From the IMG/VR virus record IMGVR_UViG_3300006802_000110, positions 1-57,798 of that record: DNA of 57,798 nucleotides. One strand, given 5' to 3'. A model generated the notes under the pieces. The model searched no databases, had not been told where the DNA came from, and saw nothing but the letters and a program-made list of their open reading frames with translations. The translations under genes and the position numbers were made by a program. Numbering within the stretch: position 1 is the stretch's first letter; each line of letters opens with the position of its first letter. Source of the DNA: a virus. Of this stretch, positions 1,160-57,798 are shown one piece after another.

Positions 1160-1729
1160 TTATAATAATTTGTATTGTCTAGCCCATTTTCTAACCGCAT
1201 TGTCACTAACGCCAAATTTTTTGCCTATTTGTAACCACGGTTCACTTTTTATAAGTAATGCCAATTCTTTTTTTGATGGTCGTTCTACTTTTCGGTTAGA
1301 CAAATTCGAGCACTCTATTGAACAATACTGTCGATCTTTTTCTTTGGTTCTAAACATTATTTTGCATTGTTGACATTTGATGTCGTATACCATCGGGGGT
1401 GTTCTGTACTCTGTATATGCTTCGTTAAATTTGTGTATGTCTTTGGGTAATTCCACAAGATTAGCTTCTACCTCTCGGTGACAATTTGCGCACAATAGGA
1501 CACATTTTTTTAGTTCTTCTACAATTTTTTCCCACGATCTAGGATTTGCACGAATGCTTCCAAAACTTATTTCTTTTTTACTAGGATCAATGTGGTGTAA
1601 TTCTAGTGCAGTATTACATCTATTATAACCACACAAATTACATTTACCACCCATAGATTCAATAATTCGTGCTTTTGTTCTAATACGCCAGTCTTTTACT
1701 TTCTGAGATGACATAATAAAAAAACTCAT
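1160..1729 (-). CDS. HNH endonuclease with zinc-finger and helix-turn-helix tail
   Basis: Probable intergenic homing endonuclease of 189 residues. The N-terminal part has the HNH/Zn pattern C-x2-C (KCNLCGY), then LELHHID and further on LLCANCHRE, giving the paired-Cys and His-His residues of Cys-rich HNH nucleases. A second C-x2-C ... C-x3-C module follows (CQQCK ... YCSIEC), then a helix-turn-helix-like end (IGKKFGVSDNAVRKWARQY), probably DNA-recognition elements. I chose the ATG at 1729 because AGAGG lies upstream; 1714 and 1771 are alternatives. It is more AT-rich than its neighbours and sits between a tRNA gene and an exported-protein gene, as free-standing homing endonucleases often do. 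Confidence 0.8.
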   Translation of the reverse strand: MSFFIMSSQKVKDWRIRTKARIIESMGGKCNLCGYNRCNTALELHHIDPSKKEISFGSIRANPRSWEKIVEELKKCVLLCANCHREVEANLVELPKDIHKFNEAYTEYRTPPMVYDIKCQQCKIMFRTKEKDRQYCSIECSNLSNRKVERPSKKELALLIKSEPWLQIGKKFGVSDNAVRKWARQYKLL

Positions 1730-1782
1730 AGTTAATGGTTGGCCTCTAACTATAAGTATTAGGGTTAACATAAAAAAGTTAA

Positions 1783-12078: not shown

Positions 12079-12723
12079 TTAGCGATTAAAACGAAACCCA
12101 CTAATTTTTGTAACGCTATCTAATGAAACTCGGTGCAGTTCAAACGATGCACTTCTTTGCGAGACGTTCGGAAACACATATGCTTCAGTGGTGTTGGAAA
12201 ACTGTAACACTTTCCAACAATGTGTGGGAATCGCAACCCGTTTAATCTTTCCAGCATCTCCAACGCATCCCGCACGAATATGAACGGAGTCTTTTTCAAG
12301 AGCCAATGCCCGTGTTCTGTCCTCCAACATCTTCCATTGACCACGATTCAGACCGGGGTATTGTGGCGCCATATTGGTAAAGTAGAAACTTTCATCCATG
12401 TCGGATTGGTTGCAACGTGCGTCTGCTGCGGGAGAAATATGCCCTCTGTCAAATCCCGATCCCTTGTAATCGTCATCGATGTTACTTGCATCCGGTATTT
12501 TGGGGTCAGGAAGAAACTTGTCACCACGTTTTGCGCCGACACTGCACGTTAATTCACGTTTCGTGGTAGACCATTCAACCAACACGGGATATCGCTTACT
12601 GACCGAAAATACTGTCGTATAGTTGTGATGTACTATCCGTACCGTATCCTGTGCGAATATGAATGATGGTGAGAGAATTAGTATCAGCCACGTTAACAGT
12701 ACCGCGGGCTTCCTATAATTCAT
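12079..12723 (-). CDS. secreted DNA/RNA non-specific endonuclease (DRGH family)
   Basis: A 214-residue exported nuclease of the NUC1/EndA-type beta-beta-alpha-metal family. A signal peptide (MNYRKPAVLLTWLILILSPSFIFA|Q) precedes the catalytic motif F-D-R-G-H-I-S-P-A-A-D (about 113-123, His as general base). The metal-binding Asn lies in Y-F-T-N-M-A-P-Q, and a conserved N-R-G-Q-W follows. The start is the ATG at 12723 (AGAGATTA upstream); the frame extends 33 codons up but without signal features. Export suggests it acts in the periplasm or after lysis, perhaps degrading DNA of host or competitors. It lies directly upstream of the GH19 gene. Confidence 0.92.
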   Translation of the reverse strand: MNYRKPAVLLTWLILILSPSFIFAQDTVRIVHHNYTTVFSVSKRYPVLVEWSTTKRELTCSVGAKRGDKFLPDPKIPDASNIDDDYKGSGFDRGHISPAADARCNQSDMDESFYFTNMAPQYPGLNRGQWKMLEDRTRALALEKDSVHIRAGCVGDAGKIKRVAIPTHCWKVLQFSNTTEAYVFPNVSQRSASFELHRVSLDSVTKISGFRFNR

Positions 12724-12843
12724 ATTAATCTCTATGGGGGTATAATAAAAAATAGGTTTCGTTCGTGTAGACACAAAACCTATCTCGTATATAAGTAGTG
12801 TTTTTGTTTCGTTTTCGTTCACATAATATTATCGTTAAAAAAT

Positions 12844-13248: not shown

Positions 13249-13290
13249 ATAAACCCCTGAGTAGCGGGGGCGGGACTCGAACCCGCGACC
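13245..13290. repeat. copy A of a duplicated tRNA 3' half plus RBS
   Basis: 46 bases nearly identical (one substitution and one 1-base gap) to 14370-14416. The unit spans the start codon and RBS of a small membrane-protein gene and the T arm and 3' acceptor strand of a tRNA (His here, Met at the other copy). Confidence 0.85.
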
Positions 13291-13334
13291 CGCGGAACCA
13301 CAATCCGCTGCTCTGCCAACTGAGCTATGTCAGC
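13262..13334 (-). tRNA. tRNA-His(GTG), acceptor stem broken
   Basis: The D arm (GCTC...GAGC), anticodon arm GCGGA-TTGTGGT-TCCGC (anticodon GTG) and T arm GCGGG-TTCGAGT-CCCGC are intact. The 5' acceptor strand GCTGACA does not pair with the 3' strand CCCCGCT (four of seven positions mismatch). The 3' half is the same sequence as in tRNA-Met 1.1 kb away. It may be a chimera and non-functional, unless repaired after transcription. Confidence 0.7.
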
Positions 13335-14373: not shown

Positions 14374-14416
14374 ATAAACCCCCTGAATAGCGGGGGCGGG
14401 ACTCGAACCCGCGACC
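14370..14416. repeat. copy B of a duplicated tRNA 3' half plus RBS
   Basis: 47 bases matching 13245-13290 with one extra C and one substitution. It contains the first codon and RBS of the holin-like gene, then the 3' acceptor strand and T arm of tRNA-Met. The 3' strand fits tRNA-Met's own 5' strand well, so this is the likelier original. Confidence 0.85.
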
Positions 14417-20155: not shown

Positions 20156-20177
20156 ATTTCCTTAACCAACATTGTAT

Positions 20178-20648
20178 ATGATTACCAGAGAACAACTAGA
20201 GCAAGAAGTATTGCGACTTAAACATGAATTGTCGGTCACGATTCCACAGGAAATTAAGAACGCTGTGGAGTTGGGCGACCTGCGGGAAAATTCAGAATAT
20301 TCTGCTGCATTGGAAAAACAACATTTTGTTGGAGTACGATTGGAGCAGATGATGAATCGACTTCGTGCGTACCAAGATATTGATACGTCCAAGATTCCAC
20401 GAGACAGGGTGGGTATTGGGTCAGTAGTCAAGGTGCGAAACCTACGGACGGATAAGATCGAATATTTTAAAGTTGTTATGCACGACATTCAGGATGACGC
20501 AGATGAGAAGATTGTCGAAGTCACCATGAATTCCCCGATTGGTAAAACGCTCATGGGGTGTCAGCAAAAAGACGAGGTAACAGTACATCTTCCAACGAGT
20601 ACGGTTAGTTATCGTGTTCTTCAAATTACTACTATACACGATTTATAA
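20178..20648 (+). CDS. greA: GreA/GreB-family transcription elongation factor
   Basis: A 156-residue full-length Gre factor. The N-terminal coiled coil (about 1-70) carries the signature G-D-L-R-E-N-S-E-Y-S-A-A-L-E (about 34-47), whose Asp and Glu at the coil tip bind Mg2+ and trigger RNA cleavage by stalled RNA polymerase; they are intact. The C-terminal FKBP-like domain (about 80-150) includes G-S-V-V-K-V and N-S-P-I-G-K-T-L-M-G. Bacterial GreA is about 158 residues, so nothing is missing. The start is ATG 20178 (or TTG 20172); the RBS is weak. A phage copy may adapt host polymerase for phage templates or rescue arrested complexes. Confidence 0.92.
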   Translation: MITREQLEQEVLRLKHELSVTIPQEIKNAVELGDLRENSEYSAALEKQHFVGVRLEQMMNRLRAYQDIDTSKIPRDRVGIGSVVKVRNLRTDKIEYFKVVMHDIQDDADEKIVEVTMNSPIGKTLMGCQQKDEVTVHLPTSTVSYRVLQITTIHDL

Positions 20649-20654
20649 AACCCC

Positions 20655-20686
20655 TTGACTTTTTAAACCCATATATTTATATTTAG
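20655..20686 (+). promoter_or_regulatory. combined sigma70-type promoter and late-box-like element
   Basis: TTGACT (20655-20660), 17-base spacer, TATATT (20678-20683). The -10 is inside TATTTATATTTAG (20674-20686), which also fits the candidate late box, 36 bases before the ATG at 20710. It likely serves the two small membrane genes and the tmRNA. Confidence 0.7.
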
Positions 20687-20709
20687 AATCCCTACGCAGG
20701 AGAATGGTT

Positions 20710-20925
20710 ATGAGTGACACGGAAAAACGATATGTGACTGTAGATTTTGGCCCATCAACGTTGATTTTTTTGACGATCACGTTGTTGTCCGTACTCAAGG
20801 TCATGGGATATATTCAGGCACCGTGGTATCTGATTTTATCGCCGGTGTTCGTAGTTGTTGTACTTGCAGTTGGTATCATTCTGTATACATTTGTAAAACT
20901 GTTGAAGAACTACTTTTTTAATTAG
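20710..20925 (+). CDS. two-span membrane protein
   Basis: A 71-residue membrane protein with GGAGAATGGTT before the ATG at 20710. A short polar start (MSDTEKRYVTVDFG) precedes two hydrophobic segments (about 15-32, TLIFLTITLLSVLKVMGY, and 38-60, WYLILSPVFVVVVLAVGIILY). It ends with KLLKNYFFN. The layout is that of small phage membrane peptides of no known function. It lies in one transcript with the next gene and the tmRNA. Confidence 0.65.
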   Translation: MSDTEKRYVTVDFGPSTLIFLTITLLSVLKVMGYIQAPWYLILSPVFVVVVLAVGIILYTFVKLLKNYFFN

Positions 20926-20934
20926 GAGTCGCAC

Positions 20935-21123
20935 ATGAGTATCATTACATGGATTCTGGCCATTATCGCAGTGGTTGCTATGGTAACGTTTATCGTTAAA
21001 TCACAAACGACAGTTACCCCAGCTCCGTCAAACCTTGGTGAAGGTGGTGGTGATTCGGGTAAGGGTGTGTACACCGACCCCAACGAAACTCCAACCAAGT
21101 CGAAGAGACAACCAAAACTTTAA
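20935..21123 (+). CDS. 62-residue single-span membrane protein
   Basis: A small membrane-anchored protein with AGGAGTCGCAC before the ATG at 20935. One hydrophobic segment (about 4-20, ITWILAIIAVVAMVTFI) is followed by a flexible Pro/Gly-rich tail (TPAPSNLGEGGGDSGKG) and a basic end (KSKRQPKL). No homology recognised. It ends six bases before the 5' end of the tmRNA, so both probably come from the same primary transcript. Confidence 0.65.
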   Translation: MSIITWILAIIAVVAMVTFIVKSQTTVTPAPSNLGEGGGDSGKGVYTDPNETPTKSKRQPKL

Positions 21124-21129
21124 TCTAAC

Positions 21130-21469
21130 GGGCGCGCCCGGTTTCGACAGGGAACAAAAAATAGCATGTTGCGTGTAGGGATTGACACTATTCCCCATTA
21201 GTGTTAACTTAATAAACGCCAACGAAACTTTGGCCCTAGCCGCGTAATACGCGCTAGTCCTACTACATGAATCTTACGGCGTGTAACTAGGATCGACAGT
21301 AAGGTATGGGTGTTCGGAGGGTTACGAACGGACATCGGCATCAGTAACTAGGTAATACTAAGTTGGTTATCATATCTTATTATTATTGAAATACGAAACG
21401 ATAACTACACACGTAGACGCATCTGTGAGTATGTTGCTCTGCACGAGGGTTCGACTCCCTCCGCGTTCA
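21130..21469 (+). ncRNA. ssrA: tmRNA (ssrA) encoded by the phage
   Basis: One-piece transfer-messenger RNA of about 340 nt. The 5' end GGGCGCG pairs with CGCGTTC at the 3' end (including G3.U70, needed for alanine charging), discriminator A, no CCA. The 5' segment carries the tmRNA-typical GGTTTCGAC, and the T arm GAGGG-TTCGACT-CCCTC is present. An open frame near 21220 (GCC AAC GAA ACT TTG GCC CTA GCC GCG TAA) encodes the proteolysis tag ANETLALAA, ending in the characteristic LAA. The regions around it form likely pseudoknots. It would rescue ribosomes stalled on host or phage mRNAs and tag their products. Confidence 0.93.
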
Positions 21470-21493
21470 CTTATATTTCCCGTCAGGTCCATA

Positions 21494-21506
21494 CTATTTA
21501 TAGTAG
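21494..21506 (+). promoter_or_regulatory. candidate late promoter box
   Basis: CTATTTATAGTAG, 32 bases before the ATG of the HNH gene at 21527; no -35 element visible. It is followed by GTACC. Confidence 0.5.
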
Positions 21507-21526
21507 GTACCTAAACGGAGAATATT

Positions 21527-22060
21527 ATGAAAGTTCAATTAATTTGTAGTTTTTGCGGAAACCCTTTTCAAAAAGAAAAAAGTGAATACAATAGACGAAT
21601 AAGATTGGGTTCATCTAACTTCTTTTGTTCATCTGCATGTGCAGGAAAAGTTGTTGGTGGTTGGGATAAAGTACGTAAAGTTGCAGAAAAAAATAATACT
21701 CTGTACGATATATCAAAACATTCAAGTAATAAAAAAGACGAATATAGTTTATTTCGGCCTCATTTTAGAAGAATAAAACGTAGAAAACATGAACACAATG
21801 TCACGCTGGATGATTTAAAAGAACAATGGAACATACAATCGGGAAAATGTGCTTATTCAAAAGTTCAATTAATATCAACAAATTTGGATGTAAAGCACAA
21901 CATTTCACCAATATATTTAGCGTCATTAGATAGAATAGATTCGAATAAGGGATATGTTAAGGGAAATATACAATGGATCAGTGCGGCAATGAATCATGCT
22001 AAAAATTCAATGTCTCACGAAGAAACTTTAAAATTGTGTGAAATACTAAAAGATGTGTAA
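21527..22060 (+). CDS. HNH endonuclease with zinc finger
   Basis: A 177-residue protein. The N-terminus has a C-x2-C ... C-x3-C zinc module (ICSFCGNPF ... FCSSAC), followed by a Lys/Arg-rich linker. The C-terminal half (about 105-165) matches phage HNH-type nucleases: G-K-C-A-Y-S, then A-S-L-D-R-I-D-S-N-K-G-Y-V-K-G-N-I-Q-W-I. The D-R-I-D-x-x-K-G-Y motif is typical. It is much more AT-rich than its neighbours and sits just downstream of the tmRNA, a position often colonised by homing endonucleases. A candidate late box precedes it. Confidence 0.85.
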   Translation: MKVQLICSFCGNPFQKEKSEYNRRIRLGSSNFFCSSACAGKVVGGWDKVRKVAEKNNTLYDISKHSSNKKDEYSLFRPHFRRIKRRKHEHNVTLDDLKEQWNIQSGKCAYSKVQLISTNLDVKHNISPIYLASLDRIDSNKGYVKGNIQWISAAMNHAKNSMSHEETLKLCEILKDV

Positions 22061-22096
22061 TGACACATATATGCAAAACCCTCTCAAGGACAGGTT

Positions 22097-22468
22097 ATGA
22101 TCAATCTGATTAACGCAATTTACGATCACGCAACAGAGCAGATGGAGGAGATTGATGAAACTATTCAAGCGTATAATGACAAGATTATTGCGCTCCGAAG
22201 AGAACGAGACGCCATCGCTGCACTCTACGATGTTGCAAAACAATATCGGGAAGACGCTGGATCACGTTATGTTCCAGTATTGGGTCAACGAAGTGCAGTC
22301 TACAACGTCCCTCGACCAGCTACTCTCAATGCTCCCCTTGTTAATCAACTTAGAGAAATCCGTCAAGGTAGGGCAACCAGTGAAGGATCTATACCCACAA
22401 CTGCGGCTGCTGCAGTTGCTGAAAATCAAAGTGTACAATCATCTAATTTATCTCATCACATTTTCTAA
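22097..22468 (+). CDS. coiled-coil protein of unknown function
   Basis: A 123-residue protein with AAGGACAGG before the ATG at 22097. Residues 1-55 are a strongly charged coiled-coil (DHATEQMEEIDETIQAY, DKIIALRRERDAIAAL). Residues 60-123 are low in hydrophobicity, Ala/Ser/Gln-rich. There is no membrane or signal segment. An overlapping frame (22155-22472) has a better RBS (GGAGGAG) and could be a second product, so this region is uncertain. Its codon choice looks like neighbouring genes, which is why this frame is preferred. Confidence 0.55.
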   Translation: MINLINAIYDHATEQMEEIDETIQAYNDKIIALRRERDAIAALYDVAKQYREDAGSRYVPVLGQRSAVYNVPRPATLNAPLVNQLREIRQGRATSEGSIPTTAAAAVAENQSVQSSNLSHHIF

Positions 22469-24446: not shown

Positions 24447-24950
24447 ATGACTCGTAAGTGGGTAGCGCACTCTGTGCCAGCAACGGTTTTAGCAAAGGAA
24501 TACGAATTCAACAAAGACAATTGGGTTACATCGTTTGATAAGTTCTTTGATGACGCATTCCGTGGAAGTTTTCCAGACTTTCACAAGACGTTTGGAATCG
24601 ATCCCTTCAGCAAGGCAGCATATCCGAAGGTAAATGTGATTTCACACGATGATCAAATTGAAATTCAAGCCGAAATCGCCGGGTATACCAAGGATGATAT
24701 TTCGGTTGAGGTCGAGGAGGATATCCTCAGTATTGTAGGAAAGGCATCACAAGCAACTGAGCAAACTGATAAATCTGTTTATCTGCTTCGTGAATTGAAG
24801 CGTAGCGCATTTAGTCGCTCATTTAGACTCAGTGACAACTTGGATGCCGAAAAGATCGACGCCACTTTCAAGGACGGGCTCTTAACACTAGTGATTCCAC
24901 GAAAGACCAAGGTAGAGATCTCGAAGGTCAGCAAGGTTACAATCAAGTAG
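24447..24950 (+). CDS. small heat-shock protein (Hsp20)
   Basis: A 167-residue small heat-shock protein with an alpha-crystallin domain at about 52-152. Key features: a P-K-V-N-V start, E-I-A-G-Y-T-K-D-D-I-S-V-E-V (first half of the domain), S-R-S-F-R-L and a G-L-L-T-L-V-I-P-R final motif with a C-terminal V-E-I-S-K-V-S-K (I-x-V-like tail). The N-terminal arm contains F-D-K-F-F-D-D. Hsp20 genes are frequent in T4-like cyanophages and probably protect virion proteins during late expression. AAGGAG precedes the ATG. Confidence 0.93.
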   Translation: MTRKWVAHSVPATVLAKEYEFNKDNWVTSFDKFFDDAFRGSFPDFHKTFGIDPFSKAAYPKVNVISHDDQIEIQAEIAGYTKDDISVEVEEDILSIVGKASQATEQTDKSVYLLRELKRSAFSRSFRLSDNLDAEKIDATFKDGLLTLVIPRKTKVEISKVSKVTIK

Positions 24951-26279: not shown

Positions 26280-27179
26280 ATGCCTCATAACGTTGGTTAT
26301 TGTTGTATAAACGTCGAACTCGGTAAACAAAAAATTACCACGGGCCGGGGAATGATCCAACGGACGTTCAGAGAAAAAGGTTTGAGCTACGCATCCGAAC
26401 TTGCTCTCAAGAACACCGAAGACCTTATCAAGATCATTCAATGGAACGCTGACCATGACATCAACGTGTTTCGTATGGGATCGGGCATCTTCCCGTGGGG
26501 TACAGAATACAATCCGACAAGTCTCAAAGACTATTTTCAGATTGTCAGTAATTTGGAAAAGGCTGGTAATCTAGCGTATAAGACAGGTCAACGTATTACG
26601 TGTCATCCCGATCATTTTGTGAAATTGGCGTCCCTGAAAGAGCCAGTGATCCTGAACTCCCTCAAAGACCTTGAACTCCATTCACTTGTCTTTGACTATA
26701 TGGGACTGAGTACGACCCCGTACAACGCAATCAACATTCATGTAGGGATGAACTACTCCGAAGAAACCGCAGACCGATGGTTAAAAAATTTCGCACGACT
26801 GTCAGAAACTTGTCGTAACCGCATGACTGTCGAGAATGACGATAAAGCGTCTGGGTTTTCTGTGGTTCAATTGTTTACACACATTTATAGTGCAGTCGGT
26901 ATTCCAATTACGTTTGATTATTTCCATCATCAGTTTCATACCGATGGATTGAGTACCCAAGACGCAGCAGAATTGGCCGCAGGAACATGGCCCGAAAGTA
27001 TCACCCCGTTATTTCATTATAGTGAATCAAAAAATCTAAACGAAGGTGTGAAGGGGAACCCCCGAGCCCACGCAGATTATGTGTATACGAAGATTGATGA
27101 TTTTGGTTTATTCCTAGACATTGACTTGGAAGCAAAAGCAAAAGAACAAGCCCTCTTTACCTATAGGTCACTTTTATGA
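26280..27179 (+). CDS. UV-damage endonuclease (UVDE/UvsE type)
   Basis: A 299-residue protein of the UVDE (UvsE) TIM-barrel family, which nicks DNA 5' of pyrimidine dimers. Typical elements: a G-Y-C-C-I-N start, F-R-M-G-S-G-I-F-P-W-G-T-E (about 66-78), R-I-T-C-H-P-D-H-F (about 115-123), N-I-H-V-G (about 157-161), V-E-N-D-D (about 185-189), F-D-Y-F-H-H-Q-F-H (about 219-227) and H-Y-S-E-S (about 249-253). The metal-binding His, Glu and Asp are conserved. Length is in the usual range. In the same operon as the GT2 and IMPDH genes, whose starts overlap in series. Confidence 0.92.
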   Translation: MPHNVGYCCINVELGKQKITTGRGMIQRTFREKGLSYASELALKNTEDLIKIIQWNADHDINVFRMGSGIFPWGTEYNPTSLKDYFQIVSNLEKAGNLAYKTGQRITCHPDHFVKLASLKEPVILNSLKDLELHSLVFDYMGLSTTPYNAINIHVGMNYSEETADRWLKNFARLSETCRNRMTVENDDKASGFSVVQLFTHIYSAVGIPITFDYFHHQFHTDGLSTQDAAELAAGTWPESITPLFHYSESKNLNEGVKGNPRAHADYVYTKIDDFGLFLDIDLEAKAKEQALFTYRSLL

Positions 27180-27802
27180 TCAGTTTCGCGGTTACGACAC
27201 ACGATGAAGGTCAATATATCCAGACCCTATTAGATCAATTAGTTCCGTATTGTGCGGAATCGGGTGATGAAATTGTGGTGGTGGATGACCATTCTACGGA
27301 TGAGCTGACAGTATCGTTGTTAAACACCTATTCAGCAGACAATACGATTCGACTGTTTCATCATGAATTGAACGGCGATTTCGCTGGTCATAAGAACTAC
27401 TTGACAGAACAATGTCTTGGCGATTATATTTTCCAGATAGACGCTGATGAAACCCTACATCCCAATCTATTGGCGTATCTCCATGACATTGTGGACAACA
27501 ATCAAAATGTGGATTTGTTCATTCTCCCTCGCGTCAATCTCGTCGATGGACTGACCAACGAAGACATTAAACGCTGGGGATGGCAGGTGAACGAAAAGGG
27601 GTGGGTCATGTTCCCCGATTACCAAACACGGTTGTATCGTAATCATGTGGACATTCGTTGGGAAGGAAAGGTTCATGAACGAATTGTGGGAGCAAAAGTC
27701 ACTGCACCACTTCCCGACGAAGAAGAATGGGCAATTATTCATATAAAAGACATTGAACGTCAAAGGTTGCAAAATGAATTTTATAGTACAATCCAACGGT
27801 AA
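27176..27802 (+). CDS. family 2 glycosyltransferase
   Basis: A 208-residue GT2 (GT-A fold) enzyme: S-F-A-V-T-T-H-D-E-G start, E-I-V-V-V-D-D-H-S-T-D (about 33-43), Y-I-F-Q-I-D-A-D-E (the D-x-D motif, about 84-92), and a C-terminal section with R-L-Y-R-N and W-E-G-K-V-H-E. It is a short, soluble transferase. It probably adds a sugar to DNA, protein or cell-surface material, but no acceptor is indicated. The ATG overlaps the stop of the UVDE gene by 4 bases, and its own end overlaps the next gene by 29 bases. Confidence 0.9.
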   Translation: MISFAVTTHDEGQYIQTLLDQLVPYCAESGDEIVVVDDHSTDELTVSLLNTYSADNTIRLFHHELNGDFAGHKNYLTEQCLGDYIFQIDADETLHPNLLAYLHDIVDNNQNVDLFILPRVNLVDGLTNEDIKRWGWQVNEKGWVMFPDYQTRLYRNHVDIRWEGKVHERIVGAKVTAPLPDEEEWAIIHIKDIERQRLQNEFYSTIQR

Positions 27803-28844
27803 GACCGCGTTAACCTACGATGATGTGCAGCTGGTTCCTGCATACTCAGAAATCGAATCACGGCAAAACATCAGTCTTCATACCAAGTTGTCACAACGAT
27901 ATGAATTGTCGATTCCACTAATTGCAAGTCCAATGGACACGGTGTGTGAAAGTGACATGGCAATAGCAATGGCAGACTTGGGCGGGGTGGGATGTATTCA
28001 TCGATTTATGACGATTGAACGCCAAGCGGAAGAAGTTGAAAAGGTTCATGATCATATTTACGGTGATGGTTTTGGAAGTTTGTCCGCCAAACGCGAGTAC
28101 ACCGTTCCGATCATGGCAGCAATAGGAGCAAACGGTGACTATCTTGAACGGGCTCAAGAACTCGTCAAAAACGGCGCCAACGTTATTTTGATTGATGTTG
28201 CACACGGATATCACAAGTTTGTAATGGACGCAATTCGTGAGTTGAAGAAACAACTTCCGTCCCATGTTGATGTGATTGCGGGAAATGTCGCAACAGGAGA
28301 CGCGGTATACAATCTCCAAGTCGCAGGGGCAGATGCAATTCGGGTTGGGATTGGCGGTGGGTCACTCTGCACGACCAGAGTCAAGACAGGATTTGGCGTT
28401 CCCAACGTGACTTCACTACAGGAATGCTCCGGACAGGCAAAGGTTCCGATTATCGCATGTGGTGGTATTCGGAACAGCGGTGATATTGCCAAGGCAATCG
28501 CAATGGGAGCGAGTTCCGTTATTCTTGGTTCACTCCTCGCAGGAACGAAGGAAGCGCCGGGAAAGATTATTGAACAAGCAGATGGTTCGTTATACAAGCG
28601 GTATCGTGGAGCCGCATCACTTGAAACCAAGAGTGTCCACGGTCAGGCACAACGCAACGTCGAAGGGGAATCCACCGTGGTTCCGTTCAAGGGTAAGGCA
28701 AAGTTCGTGGTTGACGGGTTATTGGATGGGTTACGGTCAGCACTCAGCTACGCAGGTGCATCATCTATTGATCAGTTTTATCCCGATTATGTTGTTGTTA
28801 CAAACGCAGGTATCGCTGAGGCACGACCACATCTAATCCGATAG
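27774..28844 (+). CDS. IMP dehydrogenase / GMP reductase family enzyme
   Basis: A 356-residue TIM-barrel enzyme of the IMPDH/GMPR family. Visible marks: L-T-Y-D-D-V-Q-L-V-P, A-S-P-M-D-T-V, G-G-V-G-C-I-H-R, the catalytic loop G-I-G-G-G-S-L-C-T-T-R (Cys), C-G-G-I-R-N-S-G-D-I and the Y-R-G-A-A-S-L flap region. CBS domains found in most bacterial IMPDH are absent, so length alone fits GMP reductase as well. It either raises GTP supply (IMP to XMP) or recycles GMP to IMP; I lean to IMPDH weakly. AAAGG lies before the ATG at 27774. Confidence 0.9.
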   Translation: MNFIVQSNGKTALTYDDVQLVPAYSEIESRQNISLHTKLSQRYELSIPLIASPMDTVCESDMAIAMADLGGVGCIHRFMTIERQAEEVEKVHDHIYGDGFGSLSAKREYTVPIMAAIGANGDYLERAQELVKNGANVILIDVAHGYHKFVMDAIRELKKQLPSHVDVIAGNVATGDAVYNLQVAGADAIRVGIGGGSLCTTRVKTGFGVPNVTSLQECSGQAKVPIIACGGIRNSGDIAKAIAMGASSVILGSLLAGTKEAPGKIIEQADGSLYKRYRGAASLETKSVHGQAQRNVEGESTVVPFKGKAKFVVDGLLDGLRSALSYAGASSIDQFYPDYVVVTNAGIAEARPHLIR

Positions 28845-55345: not shown

Positions 55346-57798
55346 ATGGCATATTATGACACAATACAGTTTGTAGGGGCTGGCACACCAGCATCAGGTA
55401 ATAATGCGTCCGTAACTCCTGAATTACCTACTGGACTTGATATAACCGATGATGTCATGGTTGCCTTCGTACATATACGTGACGAAGTTGGACAAATTGG
55501 TACACCATCTGGCTGGACACTAATTGGTAGTCAAAGTAGAGCAAATAGTAGAACGGGGGCATGGTATCGCGTTTATCAGAGCGGTGATACCGCCCCCACA
55601 TTTACATTTACTGGTGGTGGAGCCGGTGACGATACAATAGGTGTTATTGCGGCGTATCGGAATGTTAATACGACAAATCCCATTACAGGGAGTTTTGTAG
55701 GATCAAACAATAATACAATAGACATTGGACCATTGACTGAGTTGGGAGCACATCAGACCGGATCAATGGTTGTTGCCTTTGGTGGTCGCGCAAACGATCC
55801 AGAAGGAAACAGTGCGCCACTTTCCGCACTATCAGGATATACACTTGCCGCAGAAGCACCATCTCTTCTTGGAACCGATGCATATTTAACGGCACATCAT
55901 AAATTAAGTAATGGTGAAGCAACTGGTAATTTGACTATCGCCATACGAACCACGGATGCAACTGCCCGAAACTGGACCGGTGGTATCTTTGCACTAGCTC
56001 CGAAAGAAGAAACTGGGGATCGTCCAGCAGGAATATATTATGATAATGCAATAGCTAGTGCATCTGCGGCTGCACCATTTAGCTCAAGTATATTTTCCTA
56101 TAATTTTACGGTAGCAGACAATCCAAACAGATTGCTAGTTGTTAGTGTTGGGAACGAAGCATCAATATATGTGTCTGCATCTGGAATTACCTATGGTGGT
56201 CAAAATCTAACAAAAATAGGTTCAATTACTGCCGGGCAAAATACATCAGATAATGTGGCAGAACTTTGGTATTTGTTAGATCCTCCCACTGGATCAAATA
56301 CGTTAACAGTAACATTCAGTAGCAATGCTATTAGTGGAGTCGGGGTTGGAGCATTGTCGTTATATGGAGTGAAACAACAAGCTCCAGAAGCGGCAGTATC
56401 AAGTAGTCGGGCTCCGGGAACTGCCGGCACAACGTATAGTACAAACATCACAACGATAACAAATAATGCGTGGGTGGTTGACACAATAACACATGGTTCA
56501 AGCACGGCAGTATTTACACCAACTGGATCTCGAATAGAATCATATGACATTGCTGCGGTTGGAGCAGTTAAGGTGGCAGGTAGTTATGGTGAAGTTACTA
56601 CCGCAGGAACAACTGCTGTTTCATGGAGTTATCAACCCACACTGGGTACAGATGCAGGATTGGGTCATGTAGTTGCTGCGTTTGCTCCGGAAGTCGGTGT
56701 TACTCCGTCTCCAACGCCCTCGCCCACGCCAAGCGTTAGCGTTACTCCGTCAGTAACTCCTAGTATCTCAATTACGCCATCGATCACAAGCACGCCGAGT
56801 ATTACACCAAGCATCAGCATTACGCCAAGTGTCACGCCTAGCGTTTCCACAACGCCAAGCATCAGCATTACGCCAAGCACTTCCATTACGCCGAGTGTCA
56901 CGCCAAGTGTCAGTATTAGCCCAAGTATTACCCCGTCAATTACGGTCACACCGTCAGTTACACCGACCACGCTTCAAATAGAAGAATACTATAATACAAC
57001 CATTATTGATTTTCTGTTCAACGAACCGGCACCGACACCAACACCAACGCCGAGTATTAGTATCACACCAAGTGTTACCCCATCAATAACGCCAAGTGCA
57101 ACGCCAAGTATTTCCATTACGCCGAGTATCAGTATTACACCAAGCGTATCTATAACTCCAAGTACCACACCAAGCATCAGCGTTACGCCAAGTATTTCCA
57201 TTACCCCAAGTATTAGTATCAGTCCATCAGTAACGCCAAGTATTACCCCAAGTATCACGCCAAGTATAACGCCGAGCATCAGTATCACGCCAAGCATTAG
57301 TATCACGCCAAGTGTCACGCCTAGCATTTCTATCACGCCGAGCATCAGTATCACGCCGAGTATCAGTATCACGCCAAGCGTGACACCGAGCGTTTCGATC
57401 ACGCCGAGTATCAGTATCACGCCAAGCGTGACACCGAGCGTTTCGATCACGCCAAGCATCAGTATCACGCCAAGCGTTACACCAATTATTACATTTGCAC
57501 TACGATTGACTCGTGGTGACGGTTCAACAACGGGTAATATCGCATTGCAAAGATGGACCGGCTTCCTGTGGTCCACGGTAGCATCAAGAACCTCTACGGG
57601 TACCACAAACGTAACGGTCAATGCTGGTACTGAATACCGCGTGGTGATTACTGCAACTTCGAAGTCATATATGAAGGGTATATTCTATCGCGTCGATGGC
57701 GTGACACAAGTGAGTTCCTTAAGTTGTACTGGCCCAACAACAACCCAAACCTTGGGCGGATCAGGACCAAACGGTGGATACGTCATGCAAGCAGGTGA
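55346..57798 (+). CDS. tail-fibre-like protein with T-P-S-I-S repeat stalk, 3' end beyond window
   Basis: An open frame from the ATG at 55346 to the right edge (817 codons visible, no stop). Residues 1-225 and about 227-450 are two related beta-sandwich domains (each with a V-A-F-x-x-R or V-S-V-G-N-E strand and an aromatic-rich core). From about 452 the chain consists of roughly 120 copies of short Thr/Pro/Ser/Ile/Val units such as I-T-P-S-I-S, in two blocks separated by a Tyr/Phe/Glu-rich insert. After about residue 715 an unrelated beta domain follows (L-R-L-T-R-G-D-G-S-T-T). This is typical of extended fibres. The protein likely binds the host surface; the remainder is outside the window. 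Confidence 0.82.
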   Translation, partial: MAYYDTIQFVGAGTPASGNNASVTPELPTGLDITDDVMVAFVHIRDEVGQIGTPSGWTLIGSQSRANSRTGAWYRVYQSGDTAPTFTFTGGGAGDDTIGVIAAYRNVNTTNPITGSFVGSNNNTIDIGPLTELGAHQTGSMVVAFGGRANDPEGNSAPLSALSGYTLAAEAPSLLGTDAYLTAHHKLSNGEATGNLTIAIRTTDATARNWTGGIFALAPKEETGDRPAGIYYDNAIASASAAAPFSSSIFSYNFTVADNPNRLLVVSVGNEASIYVSASGITYGGQNLTKIGSITAGQNTSDNVAELWYLLDPPTGSNTLTVTFSSNAISGVGVGALSLYGVKQQAPEAAVSSSRAPGTAGTTYSTNITTITNNAWVVDTITHGSSTAVFTPTGSRIESYDIAAVGAVKVAGSYGEVTTAGTTAVSWSYQPTLGTDAGLGHVVAAFAPEVGVTPSPTPSPTPSVSVTPSVTPSISITPSITSTPSITPSISITPSVTPSVSTTPSISITPSTSITPSVTPSVSISPSITPSITVTPSVTPTTLQIEEYYNTTIIDFLFNEPAPTPTPTPSISITPSVTPSITPSATPSISITPSISITPSVSITPSTTPSISVTPSISITPSISISPSVTPSITPSITPSITPSISITPSISITPSVTPSISITPSISITPSISITPSVTPSVSITPSISITPSVTPSVSITPSISITPSVTPIITFALRLTRGDGSTTGNIALQRWTGFLWSTVASRTSTGTTNVTVNAGTEYRVVITATSKSYMKGIFYRVDGVTQVSSLSCTGPTTTQTLGGSGPNGGYVMQAG
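56699..57486 (+). repeat. in-frame coding tandem repeats (T-P-S-I-S type)
   Basis: Two blocks (56699-56967 and 57032-57486) of imperfect 18-base units coding for I-T-P-S-I-S / V-T-P-S-V-S variants. The interruption codes for L-Q-I-E-E-Y-Y-N-T-T-I-I-D-F. Codons vary between copies, so the repeat is protein-level with partial nucleotide identity. The region may be unstable in length. Confidence 0.9.

Follow-up and report, generated by a model that had tools for sequence, protein, structure and literature searches.

The locus studied here bears on the question why some phages carry a tmRNA gene at all, and it has a nuclease gene directly at the 3′ end of such a gene. The window (the whole stretch of DNA analysed, 57,798 nucleotides) is a phage fragment from IMG/VR, linear and 57.8 kb long; among its genes are those for baseplate wedge, SbcCD and primase. 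Its tmRNA is in itself a known kind of gene: phage tmRNAs are uncommon, as the initial annotation fairly remarked (402 of 18,146 phage genomes; 2.3% is also given; PMC9004378), but have already been described, among others in mycobacteriophage Bxz1, Bacillus phage G and methylophage Melnitz (PMC4131195, PMC9004378). The neighbouring gene is the less familiar part. We consider it likely that the window holds an intact phage tmRNA and, adjoining it, a mobile free-standing homing endonuclease whose home is the tmRNA 3′ end and which has intron-linked relatives.

The tmRNA gene, its tag and its surroundings

The upstream part of the locus is laid out as follows, L126 being the locus of the nearest relative.

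20172..20648 (+), GreA/GreB-type transcription elongation factor gene (Pfam GreA_GreB; 83% identical in L126)
20655..20683 (+), promoter-like site TTGACT-17-TATATT, upstream of the membrane gene and the tmRNA (consensus scan)
20704..20925 (+), gene for a small membrane protein of 73 aa (56% identical homologue at the same place in L126)
20935..21123 (+), small ORF of 62 aa directly 5′ of the tmRNA (absent from L126)
21130..21470 (+), tmRNA gene, one-piece, standard form (ARAGORN, Rfam RF00023, structure and covariation)
21218..21247 (+), tag reading frame ANETLALAA followed by TAA (ARAGORN coding part 89-118)
21445..21469 (+), T arm, 3′ strand of the acceptor CGCGTTC (21462-21468) and discriminator A (sequence, Rfam alignment)

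ARAGORN placed a one-piece tmRNA with the tag ANETLALAA* at 21130-21470 (+), and the covariance model RF00023 matched 21130-21472 over its full length (model positions 1-374) with 117.6 bits (E 2.4e-45; gathering score 47), so that the complete one-piece phage tmRNA initially read from the letters was confirmed by both programs. The first description also holds for the acceptor stem GGGCGCG/CGCGTTC with its G2.U and G3.U pairs, GGTTTCGAC, the T arm (GAGGG/CCCTC) and the tag frame closed by TAA; the alanine-identity pair G3.U70 (G21132.T21466) is kept in L126. The gene carries no 3′ CCA (CACTT instead), which is likewise absent from the 13 tRNAs found by ARAGORN, and in the RF00023 alignment it is uninterrupted, with no group I intron in the T loop.

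Written out with acceptor, P2, H5, T arm and four pseudoknots, the structure comprises 91 pairs, every one of them standard in the window; in L126, whose tmRNA is 86% identical, 88 are. The structure was drawn with both sequences in view, which biases the paired percentage upward. Less affected by this is the contrast with shifted versions of the same structure. Six two-sided compensatory changes separate the two sequences, against a mean of 0.9 when the same substitutions are placed at random, and sliding the partners by 1-3 columns leaves 0 or 1. These changes fall in the first stems of PK2, PK3 and PK4, so that the pseudoknot covariation on which the initial annotation had staked its reading is present; PK1 and the second stems hardly vary and show no covariation between these two sequences. 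We take the tmRNA to be an intact, selected phage gene. A relic tmRNA, also considered, is ruled out by pairing and covariation.

The surroundings are conserved as well. The order in L126 is the same as in the window (GreA, 73-aa membrane protein, tmRNA, a 122-aa protein, a 127-aa protein with CxxC pairs, HNH_5, HD), with the GreA/GreB-type gene as the first of the conserved neighbourhood, and it is kept in L126, L098 and L208. The consensus scan yielded 5 promoter-like sites where 6.3 were expected, and the site upstream of the tmRNA is therefore weak on the scan alone; the stretch ACCCATATATTTATATTTA at this site is identical in L126. The proposal of two small membrane genes sharing a transcript with the tmRNA held in part: both small ORFs exist, and the tmRNA runs in the same direction as a small membrane gene that is preceded by a promoter-like site shared with L126, but of the two ORFs only the first (73 aa) is found there. 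The tmRNA would probably be transcribed together with this upstream membrane gene, processed and CCA-tailed by host enzymes and charged with alanine through G3.U70. Searches for an SmpB gene found none in 22 phage records (most of them tmRNA-bearing), with 10 of 10 bacterial controls positive; since many of these records are fragments, the lack of SmpB is suggestive only. Given this result the phage tmRNA presumably uses host SmpB, with which it would add A-ANETLALAA, the LAA end serving as the usual protease signal. As first suggested, it may rescue ribosomes that stall when the phage causes mRNA cleavage.

Elsewhere in the window, a tRNA-His-like sequence missed by ARAGORN lies at 13270-13327 (-). 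Its acceptor stem pairs poorly and its 3′ half is identical to that of the tRNA-Met at 14388, and it is perhaps a recombined or dead tRNA. Other phage genes are those for a UvdE-type UV endonuclease (26280-27179), IMP dehydrogenase/GMP reductase (27753-28844), Hsp20 (24447-24950) and a DNA/RNA non-specific endonuclease (12079-12822), and dense tandem repeats with units of 12-66 bp occupy 56834-57483, near the record end.

An open tag frame ending in LALAA is also present in the tmRNAs of the relatives, which read GNQQLALAA (L126), GNTQLALAA (L098) and ANPALALAA (L208); the first half of the tag drifts while LALAA is constant. Scanning bacterial genomes for the nine-residue tag, with a pattern that also admits F for the first L, gave at least 119 loci. 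Among the matches listed, 82 of the 111 loci with an ARAGORN tag have nine-residue LALAA tags, and tags of the form [AG]NxxLALAA occur in at least 8 bacterial groups, including Acidobacteriota, Nitrospirota, Gemmatimonadota, Rokubacteria and Chloroflexota. With at least 82 sampled bacterial tmRNAs carrying such tags, ANETLALAA is ordinary, its length of nine residues included, and not unusual as first claimed; nor can it suggest a host phylum, as had been hoped, its form being spread over many phyla. The tmRNA DNA itself gave weak matches only against 395 Bacteroidota genomes. The early interpretation of the locus was thus sound as to the complete phage tmRNA and the nuclease next to it, and mistaken about the tag.

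Truly long tags were met elsewhere. Two distant relatives of the window phage (L209, L210) have tmRNAs missed by ARAGORN, with a tag that is 39 residues long in one case (ending PTYAYA) and probably 34 in the other. The 484-kb uncultured phage LR756508.1 (sites 92434-92880 and 414804-414915; L469 and L471 are concerned as well) carries a tmRNA with a 36-residue tag (GVNNADY...PAAV) plus a separate 112-nt tmRNA-like gene, which consists of acceptor and T arm and little else and resembles the tag-less DS6A form.

A nuclease gene at the tmRNA 3′ end

Directly behind the tmRNA the window continues with three further features.

21473..22077 (+), inserted segment of about 605 bp with the nuclease gene (empty site in L126; boundaries good to 1-2 nt)
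21527..22060 (+), endonuclease of 177 aa (PHROGs endonuclease families, family alignment, AlphaFold, Foldseek PacI)
22097..22468 (+), gene for a protein of 123 aa (50% identical in L126, synteny; there directly after the tmRNA, insert-free)

A putative HNH homing endonuclease had been proposed beside the tmRNA, and an HNH-type nuclease gene is indeed found there. L126 lacks it: there about 22 nt separate the tmRNA from the homologue of the gene that stands behind the nuclease in the window. The flanks of the segment in the window (...TTCACTT-[insert]-ACCCTCTCAAGGACAGGTTATG) match the continuous sequence of L126 (...TCCACTT-T-ACCCTTTCAAGGACAGGTTATG) on both sides; hence about 605 bp are inserted in the window at the 3′ end of its tmRNA. 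The insert holds one gene only, the nuclease, with no integrase seen. The gene lies outside any intron or intein, and it is either present or absent at one site, in the window and L126 as in two further groups of phages. L480 has the nuclease and its relatives L379, L383, L403, L447, L458 and L098 do not; by translated similarity, the sequence behind the nuclease of L480 aligns with that right after the tmRNA of these empty relatives. The third empty-site case is L525, with nuclease, versus L068 and relatives, and in L525 a 12-nt repeat of the tmRNA end (CCATCTCCACCA) lies behind the nuclease. A second TCCA was present between tmRNA and nuclease in 10 of the 11 leaders read. From these sequence comparisons, we regard the nuclease gene as a mobile element inserted precisely at the 3′ terminus of the tmRNA gene.

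The 177-aa protein combines an N-terminal CxxC...C zinc finger with a C-terminal PacI-like HNH core. In the family alignment the core motif is ASLDRID...GYVKGN and the invariant residues include C7, C10, C34, W101 and C108. Relatives in PHROGs are annotated as endonucleases; no Pfam family scored above its cut-off. The AlphaFold model (mean pLDDT 91) finds its best solved-structure match in PacI (3ldy; Foldseek probability 1.00, TM 0.52 by target, E 6e-3, 18% identity), and a PacI profile matches residues 103-175 weakly. Nuclease activity is not certain, because an Arg stands where HNH enzymes usually have His. Membership of the DHHRN family of F-CphI, whose hallmark is a central DHDH motif between CxxC pairs (PMC6083498), is ruled out by the core ASLDRID...GYVKGN and by the lack of such a motif. 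The family is nearly absent from bacteria, with 3 partial matches in 395 Bacteroidota genomes. One protein shares just the zinc finger with the window nuclease: in L072, directly 3′ of a tmRNA (1644-1990), the finger is fused to a DUF559 nuclease domain, and the gene for this DUF559-type nuclease occupies L072:2001-2654. This arrangement hints that it may be the zinc finger, and not the nuclease domain, that finds the tmRNA site.

Distribution of the nuclease family and its links to introns

Among loci then fetched, full-length homologues of the nuclease were found 60-70 nt from the tmRNA 3′ end in the unrelated phages L022, L048 and L057. Viral contigs were also scanned with the nuclease alignment alone, without selection on tmRNA, and 80 loci were kept, three of them on the contigs that had supplied the query. 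By ARAGORN and Rfam, a tmRNA lies alongside the nuclease in 49 of these 80 loci, and in 39 of the 57 clusters formed at 80% identity, window included. Next to tmRNAs of standard form the nuclease is on the 3′ side in every case (41/41, window included), 33 times in the orientation of the tmRNA and 8 times in the reverse orientation, at a median distance of 62 nt. Permuted tmRNA genes hold the tRNA 3′ half on their 5′ side, and beside these the nuclease is on the gene's 5′ side (9/9). Six clusters abut tRNA genes instead, and 8 show no RNA, some of these being cut by contig ends. In controls, baseplate-gene loci had a tmRNA in 0 of 80 cases (949 kb, ARAGORN) and HNH relatives of a different type in none of 15 loci, a small control; a second control family gave 11 loci only, and a scan with another nuclease of the window (1160-1771) found no relatives. 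This uncharacterised phage nuclease family adjoins tmRNA genes in most places where it occurs. Because its members share ancestry, the loci do not count as independent, and part of the adjacency is inherited in common; the counts are certainly raised by tmRNA and nuclease being passed on together within phage lineages. What weighs independently is that the adjacency extends to tmRNAs of standard, permuted and intron-split form, together with the empty sites in three phage groups. In the open-licence literature we found no paper linking tmRNA to an adjacent HNH homing nuclease.

Group I introns form a further part of the picture. In L510, L489 and L503 such an intron sits in the tmRNA T loop (for example GGGTTT-intron-CGAACCCC), after which come the tmRNA 3′ exon and, as a gene of its own, the nuclease. 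L487 and L532 have 5′ parts of a tmRNA upstream and a nuclease that overlaps the intron match at its end, and in the Crassvirales phages cr128_1 and cr6_1 relatives of the nuclease stand beside group I introns. In the family tree, free-standing and intron-linked members are close neighbours more than once (L482 with L503; L529 and L533 near L487).

Two observations adjoin these. At about 3000-3670 of L477 (crAss-like phage cr128_1, MT774392.1), where no tmRNA is annotated, a tmRNA-like 5′ end and a T-arm half lie by the intron and the nuclease relative; in crAss-like phage cr56_1, a tmRNA beside the nuclease relative could not be established. GOLLD RNA was found within about 3 kb of the tmRNA and/or the nuclease in ten loci (L482, L485, L486, L488, L491, L492, L495, L508, L515 and L210).

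Explanations and relation to known systems

If the nuclease is a homing enzyme, it would cut the insert-free tmRNA loci of a co-infecting phage by means of its zinc finger and PacI-like HNH core, and repair would copy the nuclease gene together with flanking tmRNA sequence. We lean towards a broader reading, in which tmRNA genes (for some members, tRNA genes) are the particular target of a phage-wide endonuclease family. Its enzymes would recognise the tRNA-like 3′ domain, which is conserved, and home to the 3′ end of the tmRNA gene even where the phages are unrelated. They would also spread the tmRNA alleles of phages through gene conversion, and more than once the family would have teamed up with group I introns of the T loop.

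Other readings share part of this evidence. The 3′ ends of tRNA and tmRNA genes are classical integration sites, so the tmRNA end might be a passive landing site, a general hot spot of recombination or integration that collected a non-specific nuclease gene without homing. The 12-nt repeat behind the nuclease of L525 and the tRNA-adjacent family members would suit such a site, yet the insert is a single gene without integrase, it is one protein family that recurs at this end, its zinc finger is met with at this site even in fusion with a different nuclease domain (L072), and there are the links with T-loop introns; we hold this to be unlikely. A little less probable still, in our estimate, is that the nuclease acts as the tmRNA's functional partner in host takeover: it would attack ssrA or the tmRNA of the host, the phage would provide a resistant tmRNA of its own, and the pair would be selected to stay together. 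Strict adjacency across many phages would be expected of such a pair, and the lack of SmpB in phages means that host factors would be shared; however, the close relatives L126, L098, L208, L379 and L403 keep the tmRNA without the nuclease. The nuclease is moreover found in both orientations, and also next to tRNA genes and T-loop introns.

It seems very improbable that the tmRNA has no function and is a passenger which the nuclease brought along or which was taken up from a host. Homing nucleases can drag flanking DNA along, but here all 91 pairs are intact with compensatory changes, an open tag and its stop are kept while the first half of the tag diverges, and the locus order is conserved in relatives that lack the nuclease. 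Should a homing endonuclease family target tmRNA genes, as we favour, selfish gene conversion could account for part of the spread of these genes among phages, and the repeated joining with T-loop introns would, if true, help explain why such introns favour the tmRNA T loop. The loci offer a natural series for studying intron formation at one RNA gene (empty site, free-standing nuclease, T-loop intron with free-standing nuclease, nuclease overlapping the intron), and whether the end of a conserved RNA gene is recognised by its sequence can be tested directly in this system.

Compared with the tmRNAs of Bxz1, phage G and Melnitz, that of the window is alike in being a complete gene in a phage genome that presumably needs host factors; it belongs to another phage lineage, is one-piece and has a nine-residue LALAA tag, with otherwise nothing unusual. 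The nuclease would, on this evidence, be a new tmRNA-linked variety of free-standing homing endonuclease. PacI (3ldy), its best fold match, is by contrast a restriction enzyme without an N-terminal finger in the form seen in this family. Group I introns in tmRNA T loops are known, and the endonucleases found there are LAGLIDADG proteins (PMC11915505); these mobile elements likewise target that end of the tmRNA gene, whereas the nuclease described here is mostly free-standing by uninterrupted phage tmRNAs and is of HNH type, a type unmentioned in that work. T4 SegB (PMC2988022, PMC13096335) is also a free-standing nuclease gene between phage small RNA genes and acts on tRNA-region DNA, but it is a GIY-YIG enzyme in a tRNA gene cluster with proven homing, while the present family is predicted to be PacI-like HNH with a zinc finger and stands at the tmRNA genes of many phages. 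The intron-linked loci resemble the F-CphI/psbA arrangement of cyanophage S-PM2, known as collaborative homing (PMC6083498). There too a free-standing nuclease lies by a gene in which a group I intron can be present, and the protein has an N-terminal part and a C-terminal metal-dependent nuclease core; F-CphI, however, has the Endo VII DHDH motif where our family has LDRID and fits PacI better, and the target genes differ.
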